Source of the DNA: Candidatus Firestoneibacteriota bacterium
Lineage (GTDB): Bacteria; Oederibacteriota; D2-FULL-39-29; CAIOVX01
DNA: 41,495 nucleotides
Direction: 5' to 3'
Assembly (NCBI GenBank): GCA_903915125.1
Contig: CAIWRR010000064.1
Location: 1-41,495 of the forward strand
Both the position numbers and the translations under genes were made by a program. Below the pieces are notes generated by a model. That model did not search any database, was not told where the DNA came from, and saw nothing but the letters and a program-made list of their open reading frames with translations. This document shows positions 1 to 18,771 of this stretch, one piece after another (the stretch's first letter is position 1; each line of letters opens with the position of its first letter).

Positions 1-13
1 ACACCTATAAAGA

Positions 14-43
14 GAAACTCCGGCCTTCAGGCCGCAGAGTTTC
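14..43. other. strong stem-loop in glyS upstream region
   Basis: GAAACTC-CGGCC-TTCA-GGCCG-CA-GAGTTTC: 12 paired bases with a 2-nt bulge; no T-run follows. Confidence 0.6.
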
Positions 44-78
44 ATAAGGTTTATAACGTAAAGCAAAACAATAACGGA

Positions 79-4386: not shown

Positions 4387-4484
4387 AAAACTCCGGTCTC
4401 CGGGGGATATATAATGAGCGAAATTATTTTAAAATAGGGAATAAACCCTAAAACACTTAATTGAAATTACAGGGAGCCGCTAAA

Positions 4485-5408
4485 GTGCCGCAAACGGAAA
4501 GAAACATAAGAAAAGGGAAGCTATATGGCGTTATTGCTGCTTTAACCTGGGTCACAATCTGGCCGCTCTCGAAGATAATAACCAGGGATTACCCTTCAAT
4601 AGACCAGTTTTTTATTGCGTTCGTCAGGTTTTTTTCAGCGGCCCTCGCGATATTTTGCATCTTTCTGATAAAGAAAGAAAGGTCATTCCTTTCGACCGTA
4701 AAAAACCACTGGCGGCTTGCGCTGCTTCTCGGTTTTTTTGGCATTTTTGGCATGGGTTCGCTGGTATTTTTCTCAATCAAATATACCAGTTCGGTGAACT
4801 CCGCGCTGCTGATGAATTCCAACGCCATGTTCATAATAGTATTCTCCGTGTTTATCGGGGAGAAGATCACGCCTGCCAAAGGAATCGGCGCGCTGCTCGG
4901 GGCTTTCGGATGCTACCTGATAATCAATAACGGTTTTGGCCTCAAGCTGTTTTCCAGCGCGACCTTGAAAGGAGACCTGCTCGCGCTGGGAGCCGCGGTT
5001 TGTTGGGCAATATATACGGTTGTAGGCAGGGCCAGGGTTAAGAATGTAAATTCCACTCATATTTCCGCTCTGAACTTCTTCTTTGGCTCGCTGATGATAC
5101 TGGCGCTTACCTTTATACTTGGCGTACCGGCAACGGGCATATTCCAGCCGGTGCCTTTTTCAATGATGCTCTACATCGGCCTGATACCAACGGCCTATGG
5201 TTTTACCATCTGGTATTACGCGCTGGAGCATGTTGAAGCCGGCGCGCTCGGGCTTTACCAGTTCCTGGTACCGCTTCTAACAGCCATCATAGGCGTCTTA
5301 TTCCTTAATGAAACCTTCACTGTTTTTACTTTTTTCGGAATGGTTGCAATATTGTCGGGAATAATTCTTACCGGAATTATCGGCGGAGAAAAACCCGCGG
5401 GTGATTAG
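4485..5408 (+). CDS. EamA/DMT-family transporter (track ORF opens at 4461; GTG 4485 preceded by AGGGAG is a plausible start)
   Basis: about 10 hydrophobic segments, two EamA halves, YYALEHVEAGALGLYQFLVPLLTAIIGVLFLNE. Confidence 0.85.
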   Translation: MPQTERNIRKGKLYGVIAALTWVTIWPLSKIITRDYPSIDQFFIAFVRFFSAALAIFCIFLIKKERSFLSTVKNHWRLALLLGFFGIFGMGSLVFFSIKYTSSVNSALLMNSNAMFIIVFSVFIGEKITPAKGIGALLGAFGCYLIINNGFGLKLFSSATLKGDLLALGAAVCWAIYTVVGRARVKNVNSTHISALNFFFGSLMILALTFILGVPATGIFQPVPFSMMLYIGLIPTAYGFTIWYYALEHVEAGALGLYQFLVPLLTAIIGVLFLNETFTVFTFFGMVAILSGIILTGIIGGEKPAGD

Positions 5409-5420
5409 AGTTATAATGAA

Positions 5421-5450
5421 AAGGCCCCGGTCTCCCGGGGCCTTTTGTTT
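5421..5450. terminator. intrinsic (probably bidirectional) terminator between convergent genes
   Basis: Perfect 10-bp stem AAGGCCCCGG/CCGGGGCCTT, TCTC loop, TTGTTT on the 3' side and AATGAAAA on the 5' side. Confidence 0.85.
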
Positions 5451-5480
5451 ACGTTAAGAACGTTACAAACGTTATGAACG
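5447..5480. repeat. AACGTT-NNN 9-bp periodic intergenic repeat, copy 2
   Basis: GTTTACGTTAAGAACGTTACAAACGTTATGAACG directly after the terminator. Confidence 0.75.
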
Positions 5481-5481
5481 C

Positions 5482-6390
5482 TTATTCGTGATGTTTAATC
5501 TCAGACGCCGTAATTCCGCTCTTCGCCCCTGCTATAATTCCCTTTCCCTTGCAGCCGAAGTAGCCGATATATTCCCTTACTCTGTCCTTAACCGCGTTCT
5601 TGCCCGGGAGGAGGATCTTTCTCATATCTTTTTCCGCGGGGTTCTTGTTGTAGGTCGCGCCGACTGCTTCGACGAAGGAAACGGAAAGCTGGGTCGCCAC
5701 ATTAATCTTGCAGAGGCCGTTCGCGATGCCTTCTATTATTGAAGCCGGGTCAACGCCGGACGAGCCGTGAAGCACCAGTGGTATATTTACGACCTGGCGA
5801 ATTCTCTTAAGCCTCGGTATATCAAGCTTCGCGGTTCTGTCCTTCATTGCATGGACTGAGCCGATCGCGACTGCGAGGGAGTCTATCTTGGTGAGTTCAA
5901 TGAATTTTACCGCTTCATCCGGCTGGGTCATTGCTTTTTCAACCTGTTCAGGAGATACTTTGTCGGCTGACTGGAGCACTTTGCCGAGTTCCGCTTCCAC
6001 AGGGATGCCGCAGGCGTGGGACATTTCCGTGATCTTCGCCGTCATCTTTACGTTCTCTTCGAAGGAGAGCGCCGAGCCGTCGAACATAAGGGAAGTGAAG
6101 CCGGCCCTTAAACACCTTACATTCTGCAGGTAATCAGTGCCATGGTCAAGGTGAAGGATTACCGGGACCGATGCGAGTTCCGCGGCCGCTTTTACTATTG
6201 CGGTCGACATTTCAAGGCCCGCGTATTTTATCGCGCCCTGGCTTACCTGGATGATCACAGGCGCTTTTTCTTCTTCCGCTGTCTCTATGATAGCTTCCAC
6301 GAACTCCATATTGTTCGCGTTAAACGCGCCGATAGCGAATTTCTCCGCCTGCGCTTTGAGCAACCATTCCTTGCTGTTTACTAACGGCAT
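5482..6390 (-). CDS. fba: class II fructose-bisphosphate aldolase
   Basis: AFNANNMEFVEAIIETAEE, VILHLDHGTD, GSVHAMKD, LVLHGSSGV; AGGAGG upstream. Confidence 0.95.
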   Translation of the reverse strand: MPLVNSKEWLLKAQAEKFAIGAFNANNMEFVEAIIETAEEEKAPVIIQVSQGAIKYAGLEMSTAIVKAAAELASVPVILHLDHGTDYLQNVRCLRAGFTSLMFDGSALSFEENVKMTAKITEMSHACGIPVEAELGKVLQSADKVSPEQVEKAMTQPDEAVKFIELTKIDSLAVAIGSVHAMKDRTAKLDIPRLKRIRQVVNIPLVLHGSSGVDPASIIEGIANGLCKINVATQLSVSFVEAVGATYNKNPAEKDMRKILLPGKNAVKDRVREYIGYFGCKGKGIIAGAKSGITASEIKHHE

Positions 6391-6431
6391 ACTTGCCTCC
6401 TAAAAAAGAATTTAGATACCTTTGTTTGGCC

Positions 6432-6456
6432 AAAAAAAAGCCCCCTTACGGAGGCT
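6432..6456 (-). terminator. intrinsic terminator for ndk (minus strand)
   Basis: Minus-strand reading GCCTCC-GTAA-GGGGGC followed by TTTTTTTT. Confidence 0.75.
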
Positions 6457-6490
6457 TTAGTTCGCTGTTTGAGGAACAGAAAAGTTAAGC

Positions 6491-6994
6491 CTACGCCCAG
6501 ACCTTCATCGTGACATCCTTAAAGGTAGCCACTTTGGAGGCATAAACGTCAACTATGACGTCTTCGGGTTTAAACCAGAGTTTTATCTCGCGTTCCGCGT
6601 CTGTTTCGTCGGAGGAAGCGTGAATGACATTTTCGTAAACGCCTTTAGTGGTGATTCTGCCGTAGGCGCCTCTGATTGATACCGGGTCGGCTTCTTCAGG
6701 ATTGGTCGCTCCCGCAATTTCTCTGACTTTCTTGATGGCATCTTTGCCCCAATAGACCATTGCGAGCACTTTATGCCTGTCGTGATATTCGCCGAGGAGG
6801 TATTTGATAACATCATCGAAGAAAGGTTTATCTTTGAGATGCCGGTAGTGTTCCGCGGCGAGCTCCCTGTTGACCTTAACCACTTTCGCGGCTATGATCT
6901 CAAGTTTTGTTTCTGAAAGCCTGGTGAGGATGTTCCCGGTCAGGGATTTCTTCAGTCCGTCGGGTTTAACTATTACAAGGGTTGATTGGCTCAT
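6491..6994 (-). CDS. ndk: nucleoside diphosphate kinase
   Basis: STLVIVKPDGLKKSLTGNIL, GATNPEEADPVSIRGAYG, ENVIHASSDETDAEREIKLWF. Confidence 0.96.
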   Translation of the reverse strand: MSQSTLVIVKPDGLKKSLTGNILTRLSETKLEIIAAKVVKVNRELAAEHYRHLKDKPFFDDVIKYLLGEYHDRHKVLAMVYWGKDAIKKVREIAGATNPEEADPVSIRGAYGRITTKGVYENVIHASSDETDAEREIKLWFKPEDVIVDVYASKVATFKDVTMKVWA

Positions 6995-7124
6995 AGGTTA
7001 ATCTTATAACATACGGCTTTTCCTAAGTCAACGGGAAATCTGCCGAAGAGGCAACCCAATATTTTTGGTTGACTTTAGCGCCGGGAAGTAATACTTTTGT
7101 TATATAGCAAAACGGAGGTTGTTT

Positions 7125-7406
7125 ATGAATATTGTCCACGTTGCCGGTGAGAATAAAGGTAAGGTGATGATTTACGCTCTTTCCACCTGTATCTGGTGCC
7201 GCAAGACTAAACAGCTTCTGAAGGACAAGAAAGTCGCTTTTGATTACTGTGATGTGGATCTTGAAGAGGGCGCTGAGAAAGAGGCCGCGCAGAAAGCAAT
7301 AAAGAAATGGAATCCCTCGGTATCTTTTCCCACACTTGTTATTGATAATCATGACGCCGTGCTTGGCTACCAACCTGACGAAATACAGGAGAAGCTGGGG
7401 CTATGA
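7125..7406 (+). CDS. glutaredoxin-family protein (start ATG 7125 preferred over TTG 7119)
   Basis: MIYALSTCIWCRKTKQLLKDK CxxC motif, FPTLVIDN cis-Pro motif; GGAGG at 7114-7118. Confidence 0.88.
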   Translation: MNIVHVAGENKGKVMIYALSTCIWCRKTKQLLKDKKVAFDYCDVDLEEGAEKEAAQKAIKKWNPSVSFPTLVIDNHDAVLGYQPDEIQEKLGL

Positions 7407-7912
7407 CAGAAGAAGAGAAGGCTCTTGAGGCTGAAGCAGGCAGAGTTTATACGAAAATAAAGAAAGACGCTGAAGCAAACGGCTATCATTTGAACCCTGA
7501 TGCGCAGTTTGCAGGGGACCTTGTACGCGGTTTGCTCATTAATGAAAAGAGGTATGGCTACGCTGCCTGTCCGTGCAGGCTTGCTTCAGGCGTCAAGAAG
7601 GAAGATCTCGACATCATTTGTCCCTGTGATTACAGGGATGCGGATCTGGCAGCGCACGAAGCCTGTTATTGCGCGCTTTATGTGTCCGGCGGAATAAGCG
7701 CCGGCAAGGGAACGGCGAAAGCAATTCCTGACAGAAGGCCTCCCAAAGAAGCTCGCGCCGGGGTAAAGACAAAACCGGTTTTGGACAGGCAGTTGCCATC
7801 AATGCCGATTTGGCGCTGCAAAGTGTGCGGCTACCTTTGCGCCAGAGAACAACCGCCGGAAATATGCCCGATATGTAAAGCCGGAAAAGAACGGTTTGAG
7901 GTTTTTGCCTGA
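7403..7912 (+). CDS. ferredoxin:thioredoxin reductase catalytic-subunit domain fused to C-terminal rubredoxin-like domain
   Basis: ACPCR...DIICPCDYRDAD...EACYCALYV (FTR catalytic Cys pattern) + WRCKVCGYLC...PPEICPICKAGKERFEVF (rubredoxin-type Cys pairs); overlaps glutaredoxin by 4 nt. Confidence 0.88.
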   Translation: MTEEEKALEAEAGRVYTKIKKDAEANGYHLNPDAQFAGDLVRGLLINEKRYGYAACPCRLASGVKKEDLDIICPCDYRDADLAAHEACYCALYVSGGISAGKGTAKAIPDRRPPKEARAGVKTKPVLDRQLPSMPIWRCKVCGYLCAREQPPEICPICKAGKERFEVFA

Positions 7913-7914
7913 TT

Positions 7915-8079
7915 ATGAATATATCTGATTTCTGCGTTGATTGTTGGTGCTGCAAGAAAGCCCGCGAGAAGCGGGGAAGTTTCTGGTATGGCTTTGTGAA
8001 ATTTATATATCATTCCCTCTGGTGTCCTTACTGCAAGGCTTACGAAAAGGAAACCGGCAAGAAACCCTACGAGAGCTAA
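7915..8079 (+). CDS. small 54-aa Cys-rich protein (not in supplied ORF track)
   Basis: Direct translation: MNISDFCVDCWCCKKAREKRGSFWYGFVKFIYHSLWCPYCKAYEKETGKKPYES*, starting 3 nt after the FTR stop. Confidence 0.65.
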   Translation: MNISDFCVDCWCCKKAREKRGSFWYGFVKFIYHSLWCPYCKAYEKETGKKPYES

Positions 8080-9845: not shown

Positions 9846-9884
9846 ATATCCGTTCATAACGTTTGGAAGGTTTATAACGTAAAC
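9846..9884. repeat. AACGTT-NNN 9-bp periodic intergenic repeat, copy 3 (inverted relative to copy 4)
   Basis: Reverse complement GGTTTACGTTATAAACCTTCCAAACGTTATGAACGGATAT. Confidence 0.65.
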
Positions 9885-9904
9885 CGGAAAGACTTAAAAA
9901 AAGA

Positions 9905-9933
9905 AAAAGGCCTGAGAAATCAGGCCTTTTCGT
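9905..9933. terminator. intrinsic terminator between pfp and the DEAD-box gene
   Basis: AAGGCCTGA-GAAA-TCAGGCCTT stem-loop, T-rich on the right, A-rich on the left. Confidence 0.85.
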
Positions 9934-9976
9934 TTTACGTTATAAACGTTAAGAACGTTACAAACGTTATAAACGA
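9932..9976. repeat. AACGTT-NNN 9-bp periodic intergenic repeat, copy 4
   Basis: GTTTTACGTTATAAACGTTAAGAACGTTACAAACGTTATAAACG. Confidence 0.8.
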
Positions 9977-9983
9977 TATTTAA

Positions 9984-11261
9984 TTAATGTTTACTCTGGT
10001 ATAAAATCTTAATCCCCGGCCCGGTATAAATATCCGAATCCTTCACCTCTGCTTTAGTCTGTCCCTGTCGGGCGCCCTTAAGCCCTCTTTTCCTTCCGCC
10101 CCACGAACTTCCCGCGGAAATAGTTGAGGACAGCTTTTCCGACGGATAAATAGGGTGCGAAGCGAGCGGTATTGACGCGTTAATTATTTTCTCGATGCTT
10201 TTTACGTCAGCGCCCTGGTCCGGAGTCGCAAGTGTTATGGCGTGCCCCTTTCTGCCTGCTCTGCCGGTCCTGCCTATGCGGTGAACATAATTCTCCGGAT
10301 CGTCAGGTATCTCGTAGTTTATGACAAGTTCGATGTCGGTCACGTCAATGCCGCGAGCGGCTATATCAGTTGCCGCGAGTATTCTGAATTTGCCTGATTT
10401 GAACCCGTCGAGGGCTTCTTTCCTCTGGGACTGTGTCCTGTCGGAATGAATCTCGGAGGCTTTGTGCCCGAGCTGGCGGAGCGTTGAAGTTATTTTTGCT
10501 GCAGCTCTCTTGGTTCTGGTGAAGAGCAGAACCGAACCGCTATATTCCTTTAAGAGTTCGTTAAGCAATTTATTCTTGAGTTCCTTACTGACAACGAAAA
10601 GTTCCTGCGTGACAGTTTCCGCCGCGGTACCTGACGGCGCGATCTCCGTCCGGACCGGCAGCTGCATGTATCTTCTCGCGATATCAACTATTCCAAAAGG
10701 CATTGTTGCCGAGAAGAGCATTGTCTGTCTTTCCTTGGGAATCAACCTGATGATCCGCTCTATCTGCGGAAGGAAGCCCATATCGAGCATCCTGTCTGCT
10801 TCGTCCAGAACAAGGACTTCAACATTTTTAATATTTACGGTTTTGCGCTCCAGATGGTCGTTAAGCCTTCCCGGAGTGGCTATAATGATTTGAGGGTTAT
10901 GAGCTAAGGCCTGGTTCTGACCGAACATAGATACTCCGCCTATAAGCACGGCAGTCTTCATTTTGAAGAGGGGGGCAAGTTTTTGAAATGATTCTTCGAC
11001 CTGGATGGCTAATTCCCTTGTTGGCACAAGCACAAGTCCGCGTCCCTTGCCGTTCGCAAGCCGCTGTATCATCGGTATAGCGAATGCAAGGGTTTTTCCT
11101 GTGCCTGTCTGCGCAATGCCAATAATGTCTTTTCCTGCTATGGCCTGCGGGATTGCTTTGCTCTGGATGGGGGTCGGAACCTTGAAATTTAACTTCTCGA
11201 GAGCATCGAAAATGCCCGGCGCAATGCCGAGCCCGTAAAAACTTTCTTTTTCATTTTCCAT
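9984..11261 (-). CDS. DEAD-box ATP-dependent RNA helicase
   Basis: AQTGTGKT, VLVLDEADRML, FSATMP, ARGIDVTDIELVINYEIP, HRIGRTGRAG motifs. Confidence 0.96.
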   Translation of the reverse strand: MENEKESFYGLGIAPGIFDALEKLNFKVPTPIQSKAIPQAIAGKDIIGIAQTGTGKTLAFAIPMIQRLANGKGRGLVLVPTRELAIQVEESFQKLAPLFKMKTAVLIGGVSMFGQNQALAHNPQIIIATPGRLNDHLERKTVNIKNVEVLVLDEADRMLDMGFLPQIERIIRLIPKERQTMLFSATMPFGIVDIARRYMQLPVRTEIAPSGTAAETVTQELFVVSKELKNKLLNELLKEYSGSVLLFTRTKRAAAKITSTLRQLGHKASEIHSDRTQSQRKEALDGFKSGKFRILAATDIAARGIDVTDIELVINYEIPDDPENYVHRIGRTGRAGRKGHAITLATPDQGADVKSIEKIINASIPLASHPIYPSEKLSSTISAGSSWGGRKRGLKGARQGQTKAEVKDSDIYTGPGIKILYQSKH

Positions 11262-14160: not shown

Positions 14161-14166
14161 CAGGTT

Positions 14167-14253
14167 GATTTCACGGATTCGGGAGGGCGATTACGCGGAT
14201 TAGCGAGAGCATGGTTTAATCTTCGCAATCGGTTTAAGGAATCTGAGTAATTC
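14167..14253. repeat. degenerate GATTnCRCGGATT-type intergenic repeat remnant
   Basis: GATTTCACGGATT, GATTACGCGGATTAGCG, AATCTTCGCAATC, AATCTGAGTAATTC between nuoL and nuoM. Confidence 0.4.
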
Positions 14254-15779: not shown

Positions 15780-17233
15780 ACACTGTGTCACTTAAGGATT
15801 TTATATACCTGATTCCGGAGTCCTTTGTCCTCTGTCTGGGTATTTTGATACTTATATTGGATCTTTTTACCCCTGTCAATATTAGGCGCAAGCATGTACT
15901 CAATATTTCAGTTTTGGGGCTGCTGCTTTCTCTGCCGCTCCTTGTTTACGCTCCCCCAAAAGGCCTGATATTGGGAGACATGGTTTCAATTGACACCTAT
16001 GCCATCTTCTTTAAATGTATAATAGTCCTCTCGGCTGTGTTTGCGCTGACTATGGCAAAGTTCTACGCTCCGATAAAGGATGAGGTTATAGGAGAATTCT
16101 CGGCGCTTGTTGTTTTCGCAGTCCTCGGTATGATGTTCATGGTTTCATCGAGCGACCTTCTGATGATATTCTTGAGCGTGGAATTCGTAAGTATTGCTTT
16201 CTTCATTCTCACTGGATACATCAAGAACGACCCTAAGTCTGCAGAGGGAGCGCTAAAGTATTTCCTTATAGGGGCTTTTTCGGCAGGCATCTTTGTCTAC
16301 GGAATGTCACTGGTAATTATCTCAACCGGAACCTCAAATTTGAAAGCTATGTCCGGAATATTGCACGCTCCAGCGGGCTACAGCCCGCTCTTTTTAACCG
16401 GATTCCTGCTTATGCTGGTTGGGTTCGGCTACAAGATTGCGATGGTGCCGTTCCATACTTGGGCGCCCGACGCCTATGAAGGCGCTCCGACTCCGGTAAC
16501 CGCGCTTCTTTCCGCCGCTTCAAAGGCAGCGGGTTTTGCGGTATTGCTGAGGGTGGCATTGGCCGCCGTGACCGGCAGAGCAGACCTGGTACTGGCATTG
16601 GCGGTGCTTTCCGCGCTTACGATGACTGCCGGAAACCTGATGGCGCTCCAGCAGAACAATGTCAAAAGGCTGCTTGCTTACTCAGGAATAGCTCACTCAG
16701 GCTATATCCTAATGGGGGTTGTCGCGGCGTGCTCAGGAACTGAACCGGAGCTTGGAATTACCTCGGTGTTGCTCTACGCTTTTGTCTACATGCTCATGAA
16801 TATAGGCGTATTTGCCGTGATAATTGCTTTCTTCAATAAAACCGGAAACGATGACATGCAGTCCTACTCCGGTATTTCAAAGAGCAATCCTTATCTCTCG
16901 CTGGTGCTGGTCGTTTTTCTCGTTTCGCTCGCCGGGATACCTCCTACGGCCGGGTTTATCGGGAAATTTTACGTTTTCTCGGCAATAATAAAAGCCGGCC
17001 CTAAGTTCCTGTGGCTTGCGATTGTAGGAATAATGAACAGCGTGGTTGCGCTCTACTACTATTTCAGAATTGCCTATTTTGTCTATTTTGGCGCGCAGAA
17101 AGACGACGGAAAAGTTGAGATCACTGCCGGACTTGCCGTTATAGCGGGTGTTACCGCAGGTCTGGCCCTGCTAGTCTGCATTTATCCGGGACCGTTTATT
17201 TCCGCAGCCAAGGTATCTGTCTTAATACCATGA
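15776..17233 (+). CDS. nuoN: NADH-quinone oxidoreductase subunit N
   Basis: VPFHTWAPDAYEGAPTPVTALLSAASKAAGFAVLLR, KRLLAYSGIAHSGY; ATGA overlap with nuoM. Confidence 0.96.
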   Translation: MNTVSLKDFIYLIPESFVLCLGILILILDLFTPVNIRRKHVLNISVLGLLLSLPLLVYAPPKGLILGDMVSIDTYAIFFKCIIVLSAVFALTMAKFYAPIKDEVIGEFSALVVFAVLGMMFMVSSSDLLMIFLSVEFVSIAFFILTGYIKNDPKSAEGALKYFLIGAFSAGIFVYGMSLVIISTGTSNLKAMSGILHAPAGYSPLFLTGFLLMLVGFGYKIAMVPFHTWAPDAYEGAPTPVTALLSAASKAAGFAVLLRVALAAVTGRADLVLALAVLSALTMTAGNLMALQQNNVKRLLAYSGIAHSGYILMGVVAACSGTEPELGITSVLLYAFVYMLMNIGVFAVIIAFFNKTGNDDMQSYSGISKSNPYLSLVLVVFLVSLAGIPPTAGFIGKFYVFSAIIKAGPKFLWLAIVGIMNSVVALYYYFRIAYFVYFGAQKDDGKVEITAGLAVIAGVTAGLALLVCIYPGPFISAAKVSVLIP

Positions 17234-17835
17234 CGAAAATATTCATGGCGTTTCTCTTTGCAGTCTGGGCTATACCGGTTCTTGCCGATAATCAGCCTCA
17301 GCCGCAGGCGACTCCCGAGAGAAGTCAGCCGGTTTTTGGTCCCAAAATTGAAGAACTCTCCGTGAAACAGGCAGAAATAGCGGGCGAGATTCTTACAATT
17401 AAAGGTTCTGTCAGGTGGTTGTCTGAAAGAATTAGTATTGTAACGAAGGACGTTGCCTCCGGGAATAATGCGTCTGAACTTCTCGGGGCTGATTTGAAAA
17501 AAACGCAGGCTGGTTTGGATAGGGCTATAAAACAAGCCTCTGCCTTTGCGGATGACCTTGATTCTTTGAAGGCAAAACTGGGTTACCTTGCAGATGAATC
17601 AAAGGTCAGGTCTGACGATTTTAGGAGTTTGCGCGAGAACATCTCTTCTTTGAAGAAAAGCGTGGATGAGAACACCGAGAGCCTTATTGATTGCCGTAAA
17701 ACATGCCTGCAGCTGCGCGATGAATTAAACAAGAGCAGCAGGTTGACGCCGGAAGATCCTGCCGGCTGGCCCTATTGGGGAGTGGCCGGGACGGCGGTTG
17801 GGATACTCGCGTTGATTTTAGCGATAGTGAAATAA
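17230..17835 (+). CDS. hypothetical secreted/anchored coiled-coil protein
   Basis: N-terminal signal-like segment MTKIFMAFLFAVWAIPVLA, charged heptad-like central region, C-terminal TM YWGVAGTAVGILALILAIVK; ATGA overlap with nuoN. Confidence 0.75.
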   Translation: MTKIFMAFLFAVWAIPVLADNQPQPQATPERSQPVFGPKIEELSVKQAEIAGEILTIKGSVRWLSERISIVTKDVASGNNASELLGADLKKTQAGLDRAIKQASAFADDLDSLKAKLGYLADESKVRSDDFRSLRENISSLKKSVDENTESLIDCRKTCLQLRDELNKSSRLTPEDPAGWPYWGVAGTAVGILALILAIVK

Positions 17836-17846
17836 TACCATAAAAA

Positions 17847-17890
17847 AGTTTGTAACGTTCTTAACGTTTGTAACGTTTGTAACGTAAACA
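17847..17890. repeat. AACGTT-NNN 9-bp periodic intergenic repeat, copy 5
   Basis: GTTTGTAACGTTCTTAACGTTTGTAACGTTTGTAACGTAAAC upstream of yicC. Confidence 0.8.
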
Positions 17891-17904: not shown

Positions 17905-18771
17905 ATGAATAGCATGACGGGGTTTGGGCGGGGAGTTAAAGAAGCCAAGGGCGTCCGCTATTCAGTGGAGATAAGTTCGGTAAACCACAAGTACTTCGAT
18001 GTGAGTTTCCGCATGCCCGGATCAATGAACGAATATCAGAATAAGCTGAGAGAATTGCTGCACGCAAAAATTGACCGCGGTCATATTGAAGTCAATATTT
18101 TCGCATGGGAAAACAAGGAAGAGAAAGAAATAGTCGTAAACAGCAAGCTTGCGCGGAAATATCTCGGCGCGCTATCGGGGCTTGGAAAGACGCTGAAATT
18201 AGACGGGGGAATATCCATAGACCAAATACTTAAGTTTAACGACATAATCAGGACCTCGGAACATAAGGAAACCAGCTTCCCTGCGCTAAAAGAGGCTTTC
18301 GAGACAGCCCTTAAGAGCCTGACGGCCGCAAGAAAGAATGAAGGCGCGAAAGTCTGTAAAGACATAAGCGCCAGGACAGGTTCTCTGTCAAAGATGCTCG
18401 ATACCATAATAAAGATCAACGCCAGAATAATGCCGGAAAAGAAAAAGGCAGTAACGGAAAAACTGCAGGAGATATTTAAAAATGTAGAGAAGATAGACCA
18501 GAACAGGATTTGCGCGGAAGCTTCTTTGATGGTTGAAAGGGCGGACATCTCCGAAGAAATAGCCAGACTCTCGGGGCATATCGAGGAGTTTAAGCGGATA
18601 GCCGGGGAAAACAAACCCGCCGGCAGGAAGTTTGATTTCCTCCTGCAGGAGTTCATGAGGGAGATTAACACCATCGGCAGCAAATGCAACACAAATGAAA
18701 TATCCCATATTGTTGTCGCCTTCAAGGAAGAACTTGAGAAGGTGAGGGAGCAGGTTCAGAATGTTGAATAG
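17905..18771 (+). CDS. YicC/YloC family endoribonuclease
   Basis: MNSMTGFGRG start; C-terminal KFDFLLQEFMREINTIGSKCNTNEISHIVVAFKEELEKVREQVQNVE. Confidence 0.96.
   Translation: MNSMTGFGRGVKEAKGVRYSVEISSVNHKYFDVSFRMPGSMNEYQNKLRELLHAKIDRGHIEVNIFAWENKEEKEIVVNSKLARKYLGALSGLGKTLKLDGGISIDQILKFNDIIRTSEHKETSFPALKEAFETALKSLTAARKNEGAKVCKDISARTGSLSKMLDTIIKINARIMPEKKKAVTEKLQEIFKNVEKIDQNRICAEASLMVERADISEEIARLSGHIEEFKRIAGENKPAGRKFDFLLQEFMREINTIGSKCNTNEISHIVVAFKEELEKVREQVQNVE

Follow-up and report, generated by a model that had tools for sequence, protein, structure and literature searches.

The paired arrays at positions 9849 to 9977 of the analysed DNA are one copy among hundreds of an interspersed repeat, and this repeat looks like a new family in Firestonebacteria. 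Judged from sequence and placement, the role of the arrays lies most likely at the mRNA level; we assign a probability of roughly 45% to the reading that they form a mosaic repeat acting in 3' UTR or intercistronic RNA. The window, that is, the whole 41,495-nt stretch that was analysed, is part of contig C64 of a 2.0-Mb MAG comprising 277 contigs (G000), which was examined together with three congeners (G001, G002, and G003) and genomes of a sister family (G004 to G008).

The initial annotation had described two facing arms around a terminator between a phosphofructokinase-family gene and a DEAD-box gene, and both arms and the stem were recovered (Table 1). The left array is situated between the stop (9843) of the upstream phosphofructokinase-family gene and the terminator, and it follows AACNTTANR on the minus strand, so that it reads GTTYRTAAN along that gene. 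The right array reads GTTYRTAAN along the convergent DEAD-box helicase gene (stop 9984-9986). The left array has orthologs in the three congeners, the right array has fewer units in G003, and a different hairpin replaces the stem-loop in G001 and G002. The inverted pair is only one arrangement among several; between co-directional genes, the majority of copies are single arrays that directly follow a stop codon.

Table 1. Arrays and adjoining hairpins in the window.
Feature	Position	Strand	Location and description	Basis
Two-unit array	43-60	-	Upstream of gene starting at 79	
Terminator-like hairpin	5419-5446	none	Adjoins the 5450 array; recognised in the sequence and conserved in congeners	Alignment
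Single array	5450-5482	+	Between hairpin 5419-5446 and stop of convergent class II aldolase gene (5482-6390, minus strand)	
Left array	9849-9881	-	Minus strand reads GTTTACGTT-ATA-AACCTT-CCA-AACGTT-ATG-AACGG	Sequence, pattern scan
Terminator-like stem-loop, bidirectional, intrinsic type	9904-9931	none	Spacer between both arrays	
Right array	9936-9977	+	5 units; inner edge GTTTTACGTTA	Sequence, pattern scan
Single array	17845-17886	-	Between stop of gene 17230-17835 and ribosome-binding site of YicC-family gene	

The window contained 16 matches to AACGTTNNNAACGTT with at most two mismatches, compared with 1.69 expected and a maximum of 6 in 100 shuffles, and 15 of the 16 were in four intergenic spots (46-60, 5450-5482, 9849-9977, and 17845-17886). 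At the three main sites, the flanking genes were kept in all four species and the array was mostly kept, with unit number and dialect differing among the species. The array beside the aldolase gene has four units in the window and five in G003, with identical edges; the one preceding the YicC-family gene (at 17905), which is in sense relative to that gene and to gene 17230-17835, is down to about one unit in G003.

Across copies, the general unit is AACNTTANR. Six positions were near-constant in the first 44 arrays of G003, in which G occupied N in approximately 75% of the units, with C or T in the remainder, and YR or AG mostly filled the last two positions; the same pattern held in 78 G003 arrays of at least three units (704 kb). 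In the sister family, C, T, or A predominates at N. The palindromic core AACGTT that had been taken to define the unit is therefore a dialect of the genus of the window, and the core is non-palindromic in related genomes; each lineage draws on few unit types. At the inner edge, TACGTTA is mostly preceded by CTT, GTT, TTT, or CCT, and T opens 68 of the 78 arrays. Among the edges previously regarded as shared, the inner edge (CTT/GTT/TTT)TACGTTA proved to be a conserved feature of the family, whereas the outer ATAT edge was not shared. Arrays comprise approximately 2-7 units; some stand alone, and others form inverted pairs with a spacer or terminator in between. Their phase relative to the reading frame of the upstream gene was unbiased (22/22/14) and thus gave no indication of a C-terminal coding or tandem-stop role.

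We scanned whole genomes on both strands with the three-unit pattern ACGTTNNNAACGTTNNNAACGTT, allowing one mismatch and counting overlapping windows separately. The numbers of matches on the two strands were 245 and 249 in G000, 128 and 135 in G001, 118 and 114 in G002, and 344 and 348 in G003, totals that are not array numbers because the matches overlap and count both strands; the reversed pattern gave 0 matches in each of the four genomes. Extrapolation from G003, in which 704 kb of stretches partly chosen for arrays held 78 of them, suggests approximately 200 arrays per genome. The genome-wide comparison with chance and with coding sequence, which the initial annotation had proposed, thus placed the copies far above chance and mostly outside coding sequence, in support of a dispersed non-coding repeat family.

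Arrays of the general unit were present in 9/9 genomes of the order, uncultured lake bacteria of the Firestonebacteria, and in 0/36 other genomes of the phylum; isolated cases occurred in 2/339 genomes from the rest of the domain. Among Ignavibacteria, 8 of 149 genomes had one to ten matches of a strict four-unit pattern, and the Ignavibacteriales MAG G059 carried arrays of like build, some of them after terminators. MAG contamination is unlikely as a full account of these arrays because the eight genomes have their own dialects. In 2.9 million viral contigs, the one exact three-unit pattern that was tried was absent. Two loci look like unrelated 9-bp minisatellites, namely 14 units of an AACGTKATT type in an uncultured Prevotella MAG (L117, 141-263) and a local run of exact AACGTTATG units at G055:C74:43772-43829. 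At a contig end of G000 (L048, C9, 5972-6181), four tandem arrays with a 53-bp period alternate between two unit orders. Second versions of the 4461-8000 region of the window occur in G001 (L255) and G002 (L251), the former seemingly identical to the window in the part compared; contigs of co-occurring strains may be shared among the MAG bins.

Placement relative to genes was analysed in G003, for which a simple home-made codon-usage method called 632 genes; the stretches were partly picked for holding arrays, a selection that should not affect orientation or position. The array centre fell in coding sequence in 3 of the 78 cases. The 74 arrays in gaps were distributed over co-directional (58), convergent (15), and divergent (1) gene pairs, with divergent gaps, where promoters lie, depleted (p 0.001) and convergent gaps enriched (p 0.003). 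With sense defined as GTTYRTAAN along the upstream gene, single arrays in co-directional gaps were in sense in 35 cases and antisense in 5 (p 1.4e-6), and paired arrays were evenly divided (9 and 9); single, partnerless arrays made up at least half of the co-directional copies. The results further revealed that, of 59 sense arrays with an upstream gene on the same strand, 47 began no more than 15 nt from its stop codon, compared with 14.6 expected under uniform placement, and that 16 of the 78 arrays contained the stop codon of the sense-sharing gene. In convergent gaps, 14 of 15 arrays lay closer to the stop codon of the flanking gene along which they read in sense, evidence against the idea that replication direction set the orientation. 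Arrays in G000, the sister family, and Ignavibacteria were also often near stops, in small numbers and by inspection.

The best explanation of this strand-specific placement after stops is either an effect exerted in the transcript or insertion by a process able to sense transcription. On the reading we prefer, the array, the transcription of which we infer from its position, would form the first part of a 3' UTR or intercistronic RNA and act there. It would damp or protect the 3' boundary of the cistron, as REP/BIME elements do, through translation termination, 3'-end decay, or read-through; REPs near stop codons act on translation (PMC12306157). Single arrays would operate through a repeated RNA motif and inverted pairs through a long imperfect hairpin, and units and cassettes would be renewed by recombination between the numerous copies. 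The evidence for this reading comprises the stop-adjacent sense bias, the scarcity of arrays in divergent gaps and their enrichment in convergent ones, the kept positions, the slower change at constant positions, and the folding of inverted pairs. A more specific proposal, which we consider unlikely, is that an RNA-binding protein recognises 9-nt modules, in which GUU and UAA are constant and other positions vary, in the early 3' UTR of many genes and sets mRNA 3'-end fate or translation termination, the system having moved between Firestonebacteria and Ignavibacteria. If the arrays do act in mRNA, approximately 9% of the genes of one lineage (57 of the 632 called in G003) share a stranded modular 3' element, a parallel, at the other gene end, to the TAACTGA arrays; we found no description of a modular 3' element of this kind with a 9-bp unit in the open-access literature. 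Because orthologous sites differ naturally in unit number and dialect, such an effect could be tested directly.

Folding differed between the two arrangements. Ten inverted pairs had a mean folding energy of -31.5 kcal/mol versus -16.2 for shuffles (mean z -5.7), and the site at 9849-9977 reached -49.4 versus -20.8 kcal/mol (z -9), part of which is contributed by the terminator; single arrays remained near background (z about -1). At variable positions, the arms do not clearly match beyond chance (Watson-Crick pairing 45% versus 43% in shuffles, p 0.17; with G-U pairs, p 0.03). The hairpin is therefore not the general working part. Moreover, the constant positions make some pairing between any two arms inevitable, and folding alone is therefore no proof of selection for a hairpin. 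A search of Rfam 15 gave 27 matches, all below threshold (best 33.3 bits; cut-off 107).

We compared 217 orthologous gaps between G003 and G000 and found arrays in both genomes in 25, in G003 only in 2, in G000 only in 5, and in neither in 185; many of the G000 contigs had been picked for arrays, so these rates are not unbiased. Some orthologous pairs differed by exactly one unit, and others differed in dialect, spacer, and even terminator between flanking genes that were approximately 80-93% identical. Gaps within aligned arrays were most often of 9 bases. Among four related genomes, divergence was 3.5-5.5% at constant positions, 8.5-16% at variable positions, and 10-11% in spacers; the contrast between constant and variable positions was significant in five of six detection settings (p 0.067 in the remaining one). 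The slow change at constant positions could result from copying between repeats, and detection also favours consensus matches. Between two Firestonebacteria families, arrays stood near the stop of the ortholog at 1 of approximately 5 comparable genes.

These comparisons bear on a serious rival, rather unlikely in our judgement, in which the arrays would be a selfish or mobile cassette family of REPIN or MITE-like type. A putative recombinase or transposase would spread array-spacer-array cassettes that survive where they are harmless, after stops and before ribosome-binding sites, and the strand bias would come from the insertion mechanism. The replacement of whole cassettes by others with a different dialect and spacer at orthologous sites fits this rival, as do the common dialect of paired arms (r 0.43, p 0.0024), the related spacers at some different loci, and the patchy distribution in Ignavibacteria. 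By contrast, 25 of the 27 G003 array positions with an ortholog hold an array in G000, and the many single, partnerless copies also speak against it. The MITE-like character suggested initially is supported in part: inverted arms were seen, cassettes differ at orthologous sites, and hairpin elements occur inside arrays, but no clean empty site with a target duplication was seen for an array among the orthologous sites compared, and no transposase could be tied to the arrays. Y1_Tnp genes exist in 8/9 genomes of the order; arrays flanked 0 of the 6 RAYT-like (Y1) loci inspected, the nearest being approximately 0.4-1.1 kb away (L297/L298), and a RAYT-linked REP was rejected for these loci. REPINs are REP doublets mobilised by RAYT transposases, and both mobility and function have been proposed for them (PMC3116915). 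They resemble the Firestonebacteria pairs in that conserved ends in inverted orientation enclose a variable spacer and fold together into a hairpin; however, the Firestonebacteria ends are tandem arrays and many copies are single. By this analogy, mobility and a role in mRNA can both be true.

An array bound as DNA by a putative cooperative protein with a 9-bp footprint (a nucleoid protein, a polar road-block, or an insulator) appears improbable. The strict 9-bp phase, the six near-constant positions, and the intergenic location would agree with such binding. The strong strand bias and stop-codon proximity of single arrays would fit a polar road-block but are not expected of symmetric double-strand binding. 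For the same reasons, and because the core is non-palindromic outside the genus of the window, the iteron-like protein-binding array with palindromic cores put forward in the initial annotation was not borne out. Another improbable account, a functionless neutral minisatellite that changes by slippage, recombination, and gene conversion at tolerated gene ends, would suit the gains and losses of units in multiples of 9, the varying length at orthologous sites, and the few unit types per lineage, but it leaves unexplained the orientation to the upstream gene, the stop-codon proximity, and the recurrence of one unit at hundreds of unrelated sites as well as in a second phylum. Even if selfish or neutral, the family would clearly exemplify short degenerate arrays that are retained at gene ends across species despite the turnover of their sequence.

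The arrays are best classed as an interspersed intergenic repeat belonging neither to the GTAG/CGTC REPs nor to the TAACTGA arrays, the families whose behaviour comes closest to theirs. Mycobacterial interspersed repetitive units are likewise oriented, lie between co-transcribed genes at stop/start junctions, and vary in copy number, but their unit is tens of bases long and lacks a 9-bp period. TAACTGA heptamer direct repeats occur in Beggiatoaceae, Cyanobacteria, and Bacteroidetes, with 169 sets in one genome, and only a suggested role has been published for them (MacGregor 2015, PMC4679880). Both families consist of short tandem direct repeats that are mostly intergenic and mostly in one orientation to genes, are patchy across distant phyla, and change length by whole units between strains. 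However, the TAACTGA unit is a near-invariant 7-bp sequence just before start codons, and no tandem unit of this kind was present in the Firestonebacteria arrays, the 9-bp unit of which has three variable positions and lies just after stops, often in inverted pairs around a spacer; the strand-biased placement beside genes is thus common to both but directed toward the stop instead of the start codon.

Similar to REP/BIME elements, the arrays are short, high-copy, and extragenic, lie near gene 3' ends, often within 15 nt of a stop codon that they sometimes supply, and form inverted pairs that would give RNA hairpins. REPs are palindromes of 20-40 bp that carry the tetranucleotide GTAG or CGTC at one end (PMC3733652), and they are GC-rich, whereas the Firestonebacteria repeat consists of AT-rich 9-bp direct repeats and has neither tag in its consensus (AACNTTANR, inner edge TACGTTA). 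Plasmid iterons share the tandem direct repeats and constant period but serve one replication origin; they were ruled out by hundreds of dispersed matches over many contigs instead of a few clusters beside a Rep gene. A DNA uptake sequence (DUS/USS) was also ruled out: coding sequence had 0.020 copies of AACNTTANRAAC per kb and intergenic sequence 3.7 per kb, nearly all of them within arrays.

Several other repeats were observed. A second dispersed element of approximately 70 bp, GCCGCACTTCGTGCGTC...ATGCCGGACTACGTCCGGCATAGCAGAAT, lies inside or beside G003 arrays with ATAA on both sides, as if inserted into them, at C22 about 5146-5225 (L078), C11 3904 (L065), and C60 159577 (counted on the minus strand); six of eight copies found with a strict pattern adjoin an array unit. 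One of the inspected Y1 genes (L297, 1192-1869, 226 aa, RAYT-like) is bracketed by inverted repeats of the GGGGACAGCGCCATTTA type (1080-1200 and 1905-1930) that are unrelated to the arrays. The window gap 14164-14251 holds a short dispersed repeat with 77-83% identity over 60-90 bases to several other loci in congeners. A third, hairpin-rich element, ACACCTATAAAGAGAAACTCCGGCCTTCAGGCCGCAGAGTTTCATA with its partner CTTTCAGATGCCGG...CCGGCATGAATAATATTAACA, recurs in array-holding gaps, including window positions 1-45 and the L079/L227 region, and its presence differs between orthologous sites.
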